DNA of 32,486 nt, from positions 1 to 32,486 of the forward strand of contig CADCDY010000024.1 in assembly GCA_902800245.1 (NCBI GenBank). The letters run 5' to 3'. The notes under the pieces are model-generated. The model ran no database searches. It was not told the origin of the DNA and saw nothing but the letters and a program-made list of their open reading frames with translations. A program made the translations under genes and the position numbers. The stretch is from an uncultured Prevotellaceae bacterium. Its GTDB lineage: Bacteria > Bacteroidota > Bacteroidia > Bacteroidales > Bacteroidaceae. This document shows, piece by piece, positions 4,073-25,424 of the stretch; the stretch's first letter is position 1, and each line of letters starts with the position of its first letter.

Positions 4073-4900
4073 TCAATCTTTTGTTATCTTCTTGCATTTG
4101 GCAATAAACTTCTCAGCCGTCTTGCAGTTTTCCGACTCTGGGAATTCATTGAGGAATCCGTAACACTCGTCTTCTGCATCGCGGTAACGTTCCAGACGCT
4201 TTTCTTCAGAACTATTCTGAGCCAGTTCAAACTTACTCTTCATAATGAGCACCGAGAACTTCTCGCGCAACGACGTATAAGGATACGTCTTCAGTGCATT
4301 CTCTGCCGTAATGATGCACGACTCGTAGTTGGACTCCGTATTGGAATTGATATTGCCGAAATATCCTCCCAAATTGTAATAGAGTTCAGCAGACAAATAC
4401 TCCTTCATGACCAGATTGTCCTGCAGGATGAAAAGTCGCTTCTGAGCCTCCTCCCTTAATGACGACTCAGGGAAGTAGTCCATGAAATTCTGGTAGGCAT
4501 TAATGGCTCCTACCGTTGACGACTGGTCCAGACGGGGGTCAGGCATACTCTCGAAGAGCGACTGTCCCACATAGAACGATGCCTGCTCGGCAAAATCACC
4601 TTTCGGATAACTCTGGAAATATTTACGGAAGGTAGCACTTGCAGCCTCATAATCCCTATTGCAATATTGTGCCATAGCCAGCATATAGAGACTTTCCTGG
4701 GCATTCTGCCTACCCTTCTGTGCCGTCACCACCTCAGAGAGCAACGTGATGGCGTTGCCGAATTTTCCTTGTGCAAAACATTGTTTGGCATATTCATATT
4801 TAAAATCCCTGTCAGTAGACTTTAAAACGGTACTGAACTCAGACGCGCAACCTGTCGTCAGGAATGCCATACAAAGTGTTATGATGCTGTTTTTATTCAT
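4073..4900 (-). CDS. bamD: Outer-membrane protein assembly lipoprotein BamD
   Basis: 275 residues. The N-terminus MNKNSIITLCMAFLTTGC is a lipoprotein signal with Cys18 as lipidation site; Thr rather than the usual Leu occupies the -3 position. The mature part is TPR-rich: FKYEYAKQCFAQGKFGNAITLLSEV, a second repeat around MLAMAQYCNRDYEAASATFRKYFQSYPKG, and a third with FMDYFPESSLREEAQKRL. The SYPKGDFAEQASFYVGQSL block is typical of BamD/ComL. As part of the BAM complex it would help insert beta-barrel proteins such as the porin encoded nearby. First gene of an operon with rpoZ, preceded by a strong promoter that diverges from that of uvrB. Confidence 0.9.
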   Translation of the reverse strand: MNKNSIITLCMAFLTTGCASEFSTVLKSTDRDFKYEYAKQCFAQGKFGNAITLLSEVVTAQKGRQNAQESLYMLAMAQYCNRDYEAASATFRKYFQSYPKGDFAEQASFYVGQSLFESMPDPRLDQSSTVGAINAYQNFMDYFPESSLREEAQKRLFILQDNLVMKEYLSAELYYNLGGYFGNINSNTESNYESCIITAENALKTYPYTSLREKFSVLIMKSKFELAQNSSEEKRLERYRDAEDECYGFLNEFPESENCKTAEKFIAKCKKITKD

Positions 4901-14068: not shown

Positions 14069-15017
14069 TTTCCATTTCAATGGACAGAAAAGCGTGTACC
14101 ACGGAAAGGTACGCGATGTGTACAACATCAACGACGACCTGATGGTGATGGTGGCCACCGACCGCATCTCCGCTTTCGACGTCGTGCTGCCAAAGGGCAT
14201 CCCCTTCAAAGGTCAGGTGCTGAACCAGATTGCCGCGAAGTTCCTGGATGCCACTACCGACATCTGTCCGAACTGGAAACTGGCTACCCCCGACCCCATG
14301 GTCACCGTGGGTCTGAAGTGTGAGGGTTTCCGTGTGGAGATGATTATCCGCTCTATCCTCACTGGCTCTGCCTGGCGTGAGTACAAGAATGGTTGCCGTG
14401 AGTTGTGTGGCGTGAAGCTGCCCGACGGCATGAAGGAGAACGAGCGTTTCCCCGAGCCCATCATCACCCCGACCACCAAGGCCGACGAGGGTCACGACAT
14501 GAACATCTCGAAGGAAGAAATCATCGCCCAGGGCATCGTTTCTGCCGAGGACTACGCCATCATGGAGGACTACACCCGCAAGATTTTTGCCCGTGGTCAG
14601 ATGATTGCCGAGAAGCGCGGACTCATCCTCGTCGACACCAAGTACGAGTTTGGCAAGCGCGACGGTAAGGTGTACCTCATCGACGAGATTCACACGCCCG
14701 ACTCCAGCCGCTACTTCTATGCCGACGGCTATGAGGAGAAATTGGCCAAGGGCGAGCCCCAGCGCCAGCTGTCAAAGGAGTTCGTGCGTCAGTGGCTCAT
14801 CGAGCACGACTTCATGAACGAGCCCGGTCAGGTGATGCCTGAGATTACCGACGAATATGCCGAGAGCGTCTCAGACCGTTACATCGAGCTCTACGAGCAC
14901 ATTGTAGGCGAGCGCTTTGACAAAACCACTGTGCTCGGCGATTCTGTCGCCGAGGAAGACCTCGCCGCCCGCATTGAGAAGAACGTCAGCGAATGGCTTA
15001 CCAGCAGGAACAAATAA
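14046..15017 (+). CDS. purC: Phosphoribosylaminoimidazole-succinocarboxamide synthase
   Basis: 323-residue purine enzyme joining aspartate to CAIR with ATP. Seen: GKVRDVY (20-26) of the nucleotide-binding loop, [11 protein letters not shown] (39-49), [21 protein letters not shown] and [17 protein letters not shown], all hallmarks of SAICAR synthetase. It belongs to the longer (~310 residue) form rather than the ~240-residue enteric form. The start ATG lies inside the end of phoH, and its own end overlaps menG by 25 bases, so three successive genes are nested head to tail. Confidence 0.96.
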
Positions 15018-15727
15018 ACCCATATACCTGCGGAGATAAAGCTCAACAGGTGGAGGCGATGTTCGACAACATTGCCCCTACCTATGACACACTCAATCAC
15101 CGACTTTCCTGGAACATCGACAAGGGGTGGCGCCGTAAGGCCATCAAGCTGTTAGAGCCCTTCGCCCCCAAGACCCTCCTCGACGTGGCAACAGGCACAG
15201 GCGACTTTGCCATACAGGCCTGTCAGATGCTGGACGGCGTACATGTCACAGGCATCGACATCAGCGAAGGTATGATGGACGTCGGACGGAAGAAGGTCAA
15301 CGAGGTGGGGCTCACTGAACGCATCGCTTTCGAGCATGAAGACTGTACCAGTCTCTCCTACCCTGATGCAACTTTTGACGCCGTAACCGCGGCCTTCGGC
15401 ATTCGCAATTTTGCCGACCTCGACGCAGGACTGCGCGAGATGTGCCGCATACTACGGCCTGGTGGACATCTCAGCATCGTGGAACTGACGACACCCGTCT
15501 CGTTCCCCATGCGACAGTTGTTCCACATCTACTCTCATACGGTGCTGCCCGTCTACGGACGACTCATCTCCAAGGACACCAGCGCCTACTCTTATCTCAC
15601 CAAGACCATCGAGGCGTTCCCGCAAGGCGAGCGCATGGTGGATATCCTGAAGAAGGCAGGCTTTGCCGAGGCATCATTCCGACGACTGACCTTCGGCATC
15701 TGCACAATGTATTTTGCAAAAAAATAG
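14993..15727 (+). CDS. menG: Demethylmenaquinone methyltransferase (UbiE/MenG family)
   Basis: 244-residue SAM-dependent methyltransferase, the last step of menaquinone synthesis. Motifs: [16 protein letters not shown] (24-39), SAM-binding [10 protein letters not shown] (64-73), GIDISEGMM (87-95), [17 protein letters not shown] and [14 protein letters not shown]. Annotated UbiE in many genomes, but menaquinone is the quinone of Bacteroidetes and menA is nearby, so menG is the better name. The ATG sits 25 bases inside purC. The alternative dual function in ubiquinone synthesis is unlikely here. Confidence 0.94.
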
Positions 15728-22850: not shown

Positions 22851-23459
22851 ATGAAACTCGTTCTCATGACACAACCCACGTTCTTCGTGGAGGAAGATAA
22901 AATCCTGACGTCACTCTTCGAGGAGGGACTCGACAACCTGCATCTTTATAAGCCAGGTTCCGAGCCCATCTATTCTGAACGACTGCTGACATTGCTGTCG
23001 GACGATTACTATAAGAAGATTACCGTTCACGACAATTTCTACCTCAAGGAAGAATACAAGTTGCGTGGTATCCATATTGACGACGAGACCACTCCTGCAC
23101 CAAAAGGCTATCGCGGAAACATCAGTCGTACATGTACGCATCTGGACCAATTGAAAACGGCCAAGAAGAATGCTGATTATGTGCTGTTGAAATACATCTT
23201 TGACAGTCAGACGGAACCAGACCAGAAGGCGTCATTCACCGCCGAGGAACTGAAAGAGGCATCGCGTCGTGGACTCATCGACCGCCACGTCTATGCATTG
23301 GGAGGCATGAATCTCGACACTATCAAGATGGCCAAGGACTTAGGTTTCGGAGGTATCGTCATCAGCGGCGACCTTTGGAATCGTTTCAACATCCAGCAGG
23401 AACTGGACTATCAGGCACTGATTGATCATTTTGCAAAACTACGTAAAGCTATAGGATAA
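22851..23459 (+). CDS. ThiE/TenI-like TIM-barrel protein
   Basis: 202 residues with a pattern matching thiamine-phosphate synthase/TenI barrels: a substitute for the NDR loop (VHDNFYLKEEYKLRGIHIDD, ~59-78), the equivalent of the S-HT loop (SRTCTHLDQLKTAK), ADYVLLKYIFDSQTEPDQ in place of the GP-F-T-TK motif, and ALGGMNLDTIKMAKDLGFGGIVISG as the final phosphate-binding strand. Several ThiE-defining residues (NDR, LGQ, TK) are altered, so true thiamine-phosphate synthase activity is doubtful; a diverged TenI-like role is at least as likely. It lies six bases after pheS and three before prs, so is probably co-transcribed. Confidence 0.68.
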   Translation: MKLVLMTQPTFFVEEDKILTSLFEEGLDNLHLYKPGSEPIYSERLLTLLSDDYYKKITVHDNFYLKEEYKLRGIHIDDETTPAPKGYRGNISRTCTHLDQLKTAKKNADYVLLKYIFDSQTEPDQKASFTAEELKEASRRGLIDRHVYALGGMNLDTIKMAKDLGFGGIVISGDLWNRFNIQQELDYQALIDHFAKLRKAIG

Positions 23460-23462
23460 GCT

Positions 23463-24352
23463 ATGAACAATAAAAACTACATGGTATTTTCAGGTACGGC
23501 AACAAAGTACCTCGCGGAGAAAATCTGCCAAAGCCTTGGGTGTCCGTTAGGTGAACTTCTTATCACCAAGTTCTCCGACGGCGAGTTTGCTGTTTCATAT
23601 GAGGAAAGCATCCGTGGACGCGACATCTTCCTCGTACAGAGCACGTTCCCAAACTCTGACAATCTGATGGAGTTGCTCTTGATGATTGATGCCGCCAAGC
23701 GCGCATCTGCACGTACCATCAATGCGGTCATTCCCTATTTCGGATGGGCACGTCAAGATCGAAAGGACAAGCCACGTGTCAGCATAGGCGCAAAATTGGT
23801 GGCCGACCTGCTGAGTGCTGCTGGTGTCAATCGCGTGATTACGATGGACCTCCATGCAGACCAGATTCAGGGGTTCTTCGATGTTCCTGTCGACCATCTC
23901 TATGCGTCGAACGTTATTCTTCCCTATCTGCAGAGTCTGAAACTTGAGGATATGGTGATAGCATCGCCTGACGTAGGTGGTTCCAAGCGTGCTAATACCT
24001 ATGCCAAGTATCTAGGTTGTCCGCTGGTGCTGTGTAACAAGACCCGTGCTCGTGCTAATGTGGTAGCCACGATGCAGATTATCGGTGACGTGGAAGGTAA
24101 GAATGTGGTGATTATCGACGACATGGTGGATACTGCAGGTACCATTACCAAAGCTGCAGATATCATGAAGGAAGCTGGCCCGCCAGCGAACGTGTTCAGA
24201 ATTCAGCCCTCGAGGAGATCGTATTTACCGACTCCATCCCCTACTCTCAGCGGTGCGCCAAAGTGAAACAGCTGAGTGTAGCAGATTTATTCGCAGAAAC
24301 AATCCGTAGAGTTATCAACAATGAAAGCATCTCTAGCCAGTATATTATTTAG
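23463..24352 (+). pseudogene. prs: Ribose-phosphate pyrophosphokinase, disrupted by a ~46-base deletion/frameshift
   Basis: Prs makes PRPP for purine, pyrimidine, His and Trp synthesis. The first 240 codons are normal: the RQDRKDKPR loop, MDLHADQIQGFFDVPVDHL, and the PRPP-binding VVIIDDMVDTAGT. After KEAG (~24178) the frame shifts and stops at 24266, giving only 267 residues ending in unrelated sequence. The +1-shifted frame immediately continues as Prs (PASERVQNSALEE, then TDSIPYSQRCAKVKQL and SSQYII) to a stop at 24350-24352. Compared with the family, about 15 residues between EAG and GPASE are missing; restoring 46 bases would give exactly 312 codons, the usual size. Either a real lesion or an assembly error; the rest shows no decay. 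Confidence 0.88.
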
Positions 24353-25424
24353 TGTTGCCCTGCTGACATCCTGTCAGTCAAATAGTTACAAGATTAGCGG
24401 TTCGGTTAGCTCTTCTGAAGGACTGGCCGACGGTGACACGCTGTTTATCACCAAGGATTTGCAGACAGGTATTCCTAGTGATACGCTCATCATTCAGGAT
24501 GGAAAATTCAAATTGAGCGGTGAGACGGATTCTACAGCATTGTGCATGATATATAGTACCAAACGCAATGAAATCAATGCTGCATTCTTTATGGAGCCTG
24601 GCACCATTAACATTCAGTTGACAGGCCAACCTGGCGGTTCGCGTGTGGGAGGAACAACCTGCAATAACCAATGGCAGACACTCAACGATAGTGTGATGTC
24701 TATCGGTAAGGAAATCAATCGTATTGCAGAACATATCTATGGCAATAATCTTTCGCAGGAAGAGCAGCAGAAAGGTATGGAGCAGATTGACAAGCTGAAC
24801 AAGCGGTTTGCTGAACTGGTGGTTAAGACTGCAGAGAAAAACATCGACAACGAGTTTGGATACTTCCTTCTGACGTACTATCCTGAGGAACTCATTGACA
24901 ACAATACTCGTGCAAAACTGATTAAAGATTTGCCTGCAGAGATGCGCCAGCGAACAGCTATCAAGCAGTTGGAACAGGCCATCAATGCTACAGCAAAGAC
25001 TGCTGAGGGTGCCACCATCAAAGACTTCACGCAGAAAGCTCCAGACGGAACGGAAATCAGTCTGATGGACGAAGTCAAGAAACACAAAGTAACCGTCATC
25101 GATTTCTGGGCCTCATGGTGTGGTCCATGCCGTCAGGAAATGCCATTCATGATGCAAATGTATGACAAACATAAGACGAAAGGACTCGGCATCATTGGTA
25201 TATCGCTCGACAACGACAAGGATGCATGGGTAAAGGGCACGGAAGCATTGGGATTCACATGGCCTCAGATGAGCGACTTGAAGGGTTGGGAGAATGAAAT
25301 CGCCCAGCATTTCCAGGTGACAAGTATCCCCCACACCATCGTTGTCGACCAAAAGGGTACTATCCTGCGTCGTGGACTTCGCGGTGAGGAACTGGAGGCT
25401 TTCGTCGCTGAACAACTGAAATAG
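24321..25424 (+). CDS. TlpA-family thioredoxin-like lipoprotein with DUF4369 domain
   Basis: 367 residues. Signal MKASLASILFSVALLTSC is a lipoprotein signal (LTSC lipobox, Cys18). A DUF4369-like beta domain follows (YKISGSVSSSEGLADGDTLFI ... DGKFKLSGETDST, ~23-130), then a helical linker (~130-235) and a C-terminal thioredoxin fold with CGPC active site (Cys267-Cys270 in FWASWCGPCRQEMP) and the cis-Pro in VTSIPHTIVVD. Likely a periplasmic-facing, membrane-anchored thiol:disulfide reductase. Its ATG lies inside the shifted 3' part of prs (32-base overlap), so expression probably depends on the upstream transcript. A bidirectional terminator follows. Confidence 0.88.
   Translation: MKASLASILFSVALLTSCQSNSYKISGSVSSSEGLADGDTLFITKDLQTGIPSDTLIIQDGKFKLSGETDSTALCMIYSTKRNEINAAFFMEPGTINIQLTGQPGGSRVGGTTCNNQWQTLNDSVMSIGKEINRIAEHIYGNNLSQEEQQKGMEQIDKLNKRFAELVVKTAEKNIDNEFGYFLLTYYPEELIDNNTRAKLIKDLPAEMRQRTAIKQLEQAINATAKTAEGATIKDFTQKAPDGTEISLMDEVKKHKVTVIDFWASWCGPCRQEMPFMMQMYDKHKTKGLGIIGISLDNDKDAWVKGTEALGFTWPQMSDLKGWENEIAQHFQVTSIPHTIVVDQKGTILRRGLRGEELEAFVAEQLK

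Follow-up and report, generated by a model that had tools for sequence, protein, structure and literature searches.

Chen et al. (2020, PMC7111523) describe errors of local assembly in metagenome-assembled genomes, through which incorrect protein-coding sequences enter the databases. The gene analysed in this work matches in both of its pieces the ribose-phosphate diphosphokinase family (Prs; TIGR01251), from which it differs in lying in two frames and in being short of 15 codons and one base. It is carried by a stretch of 32,486 nucleotides (the window), which makes up the whole of contig C24 in a draft genome, G000 (3,478,266 bases in 204 contigs, 88.17% complete). The draft state of G000 and the identity of its nearest named relatives (uncultured Prevotella and Prevotellaceae genomes, of which several come from ruminants) indicate that it is very probably itself a metagenome-assembled genome. 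As argued below, the split prs is most likely an ordinary artefact and not a real feature of the organism.

The prs gene as deposited and its neighbourhood

The prs gene spans 23463-24352 in total, with a frame shift after codon 239 and a stop of the first frame at 24266. The gene and its two neighbours are laid out as follows:

22851..23459, + strand: intact upstream neighbour of prs, matched end to end and in one frame in G007, G033 and G035
23463..24266, + strand: first prs frame, 267 codons and then a stop; genuine Prs sequence through codon 239, later out of frame; TIGR01251 positions 1-237
24177..24182, + strand: junction at which 46 bases are missing by comparison with 109 loci, free of N
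24179..24352, + strand: remainder of prs, carrying the C-terminal peptide in another frame, to the normal stop at 24350-24352; TIGR01251 positions 253-307
24321..25424, + strand: downstream gene, with its start inside the 3′ end of prs, matched over positions 1-367 of 367 in G007 and G033

No single open frame spans the whole TIGR01251 profile (309 positions), as positions 1-237 and 253-307 are found in separate frames, although the first frame alone reaches 303.8 bits against a curated cut-off of 113. The 890 bases present plus 46 make 936, that is, 312 codons with the stop included. The whole contig was checked for N, and none was found. Prs as deposited, lacking 15 residues and the C-terminal part, would be expected to be enzymatically inactive. 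The original prediction had described a deletion of 46 bases with a frameshift, a stop at 24266 and another frame running to 24352, with about 15 residues gone and 312 codons once the bases are restored. This description proved exact, the number of TIGR01251 positions missing between the two pieces being 15.

The upstream gene is presumably thiamine-phosphate-synthase-like, and of 118 prs loci that were scanned, 66 contain a homologue of it (3 of them are the window's own DNA). The downstream gene, which we take to encode a thioredoxin-like lipoprotein, overlaps the last prs codons in another frame (24321-24352), and the same overlap occurs in G007 and G033 (L004 and L005). Since the downstream gene starts within the 3′ end of prs in these two genomes as well, the DNA past the junction is in its usual place. 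The gene order around prs is that found in both. Among the 31 other genes of the window, 14 have a counterpart in the compared stretches of G007, G033 and G035, and 17 do not; 13 of the 14 are in one piece and one frame, while the last is split in G033 and intact in the window.

Comparison with other prs loci

A total of 111 prs loci were compared, two of which (L001 and L002) are the window itself, leaving 109 for comparison (sets of 29 and 80 loci, the latter from species genomes, with some genomes possibly common to both sets). From the G codon of the KEAG motif to the P codon of the PASERV motif, all 109 loci have exactly 45 bases in one frame, whereas the corresponding value in the window is -1; therefore, 46 bases are gone from the window prs. 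The two pieces on either side of the junction are 94.9-98.3% and 94.7-96.5% identical, respectively, to their counterparts in G007, G033 and G035.

We considered whether a stretch ultra-conserved between species could have tangled the assembly graph and so caused the break in the window. A test on 53 prs genes did not bear this idea out: the deleted stretch is of average conservation (mean pairwise identity 0.744 vs 0.748 for the whole gene, with 57.5% of windows higher), and 9 of 400 exact matches of at least 25 bases overlap it, fewer than the mean of the gene. It could fit G130 and G080, in which the breaks touch the most conserved parts of prs.

Within the genus, prs was found over the cut-off in 227 of 249 genomes. 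The best E-value was 2.6e-105 or better in 222 of the 227, and the remaining five (G000, G080, G123, G130 and G232) have a partial gene. In G123 the position corresponding to the loss in the window is occupied by 33 N; judging from related genomes, about 70 bases should be present there. The prs of G130 (L142) lacks about 20 codons and changes frame without any N, that of G232 (L143) changes frame at another place than in the window, and in G080 a contig end is reached, so that the sequence begins inside prs. That G000 and G123 are broken at the same place was not taken as meaningful, since among five partial prs genes in 249 genomes two breaks could well coincide by chance.

The 22 of 249 genomes without prs over the cut-off could be read as a sign that loss of prs is common in the genus. 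We rejected this reading, because masking or incompleteness can explain the absence. One of the 22, G024, is a closed genome, in which a gene whose beginning resembles that of the gene normally found upstream of prs leads into a run of N; its lack of prs is thus not readable, the expected place being masked. A search with PF13793 of 11 of the other 21 genomes gave no match over the cut-off. Three genomes, G068, G205 and G008, are at least 90% complete, and yet prs was not found in them over the cut-off.

Other cut genes in the same genome

The rest of the assembly was sampled through the first 20 kb of contigs C1-C20 (400 kb), a non-random sample in which contig starts are possibly worse than average. 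A frame scan using in-frame hexamer statistics over 432,486 bases (the 400 kb sample plus the window) listed 41 changes, one of which was the known one in prs. Sixteen of the 41 were read: 8 were accepted (prs included), one was a run of 9 N in L168, and 7 (L158, L160, L161 at 7176, L163, L169, L174 and L177 at 13735) were discarded on visual inspection as neighbouring genes or shadow frames. After separate searches with the pieces, seven further conserved genes were accepted as cut in 400 kb, each through the loss of a short stretch that leaves no N and shifts the frame, five of them by complementary profile positions and two on weaker evidence. The eight genes, with the profile positions missing between their pieces, are:

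prs: 15 positions (TIGR01251)
gyrA: 25 positions (TIGR01063)
aroC: 32 positions (NF003793)
cls: 24 positions (TIGR04265)
mlaE: 20 positions (PF02405)
bcp: 9 positions by PF00578, 2 by NF006960
histidine kinase: weaker evidence, the HisKA match ending at 30 of 66, ahead of the frame change
outer-membrane efflux protein: cut with a frame change, weaker evidence

Elsewhere in G000 no gyrA was found over the cut-off of 877; the search returned only the two pieces and one match of 236.7 bits, which is probably the paralogue parC.

The 400 kb sample also contains runs of N, of 13 bases in L161 (C4), 9 bases in L168 (C11) and 19 bases in L169 (C12). The run of 9 N falls close to the beginning of an acyl-CoA dehydrogenase gene, at a place where, as we assume for this family, about 20 residues belong. 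Because this run and that of 33 N in G123 each replace a longer sequence, both are read as scaffold gaps, while the runs of 13 and 19 N could alternatively be masked stretches.

As a control, 99,658 bases of G007, G033 and G035 were scanned with at least 120 bases on both sides of a change. Four rows were obtained, two in G007 that read as adjacent genes and two inside one gene of G033. No break was therefore accepted in G007 and G035 (74,013 bases together), and one broken gene was accepted in G033 (25,645 bases), stretches too short to rank G000 below its relatives; under the same length filter the G000 set gave 15 rows, 8 of them accepted. In L146 of G033, the homologue of the window methyltransferase gene (14993-15727) is split over three frames, with changes near 4465 and 4733. 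Such breaks are thus present in draft genomes of related organisms as well.

PRPP metabolism in the source genome

A second prs elsewhere in the genome had been proposed as one way out of the apparent loss. The genome, 88.17% complete, was searched for it with the protein, with a profile of the N-terminal domain and with a whole-family profile, and none was found. PhnN is a bypass enzyme; the search for it in G000 gave nothing over the cut-off, and its best match, at 36.8 bits against 156, is probably another kinase. Four phosphoribosyltransferases that use PRPP, hpt, apt, pyrE and xpt, are intact in G000 by profile search. Because these four enzymes consume PRPP, the suggestion that the strain depends on salvage is left unsupported, and a true loss of prs is likewise not supported.

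Origin of the break

The 46-base loss in the window, the presence of the full stretch in the 109 comparison loci and the recurrence of like breaks in the assembly are observations. The explanation that we hold with high confidence, judging from these sequences, is that the missing bases reflect a local assembly error in the draft genome, in which case the join and not the cell would have lost them. The contig would probably have arisen from two pieces that read pairs or a weak overlap had brought next to each other; a short intervening stretch may then have been left unassembled, with the ends joined directly. The argument comes from the other conserved genes that are cut alike in the same genome. 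GyrA is indispensable, and it is implausible that a cell could live with both gyrA and prs out of action, whereas the omission of short stretches where assembled pieces are joined accounts for all eight genes. We also count in favour of an assembly error the N runs in the sample, the partial prs genes in four other genomes of the genus and the 33 N in G123, as well as the intact PRPP-using enzymes and the gene order shared with G007 and G033. An intact prs is very probably present in the organism itself. A wrong assembly was one of three outcomes that the original prediction had offered, and the seven other genes cut in 400 kb make it the best supported of them; the deletion as a statement about the organism is not supported.

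A real deletion would mean that the function of prs was lost recently and that the cell survives on another source of PRPP, for example a second prs that escaped detection, a bypass enzyme or uptake. The deposited sequence does show the loss, at a junction free of N, a second prs could be missing from an assembly of this completeness, and the genomes of the genus without prs over the cut-off might be cited as parallels, subject to the masking and incompleteness noted above. We nevertheless regard this explanation as very unlikely, since neither a second prs nor a PhnN match over the cut-off was found, the enzymes that use PRPP are kept, gyrA and other genes are broken in a like manner, and the rest of prs is well preserved, at the identities to G007, G033 and G035 given above. 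Its boldest form, a Prevotella population in which a recent deletion has truly removed PRPP synthase and which depends on an undescribed PRPP source or on uptake from its neighbours, appears to us less probable still. Strains can presumably be merged in metagenome assemblies, and the deletion could accordingly belong to a minority strain that was picked by the assembler; yet eight genes in 432 kb, with gyrA among them, would all have to be explained in this way, and such a mixed population seems to us hardly credible.

If an assembly error is accepted, its consequences extend beyond prs. Extrapolated from seven genes in 400 kb, about 60 breaks would be expected in 3.48 Mb, so that apparent pseudogenes in G000 should not be taken as biology without reads. 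More generally, before a gene is taken as lost from the evidence of a single draft genome, other conserved genes of that assembly need to be checked.

Comparison with described assembly errors

The errors treated by Chen et al. (2020, PMC7111523) were identified by their lack of read support, whereas the break in the window was identified by sequence comparison. The assembler that they suspect above all is IDBA-UD. In its form, though, the break in the window resembles the errors described there: that is, a short loss at one point, which yields a wrong protein-coding sequence and is repeated elsewhere in the same draft genome.
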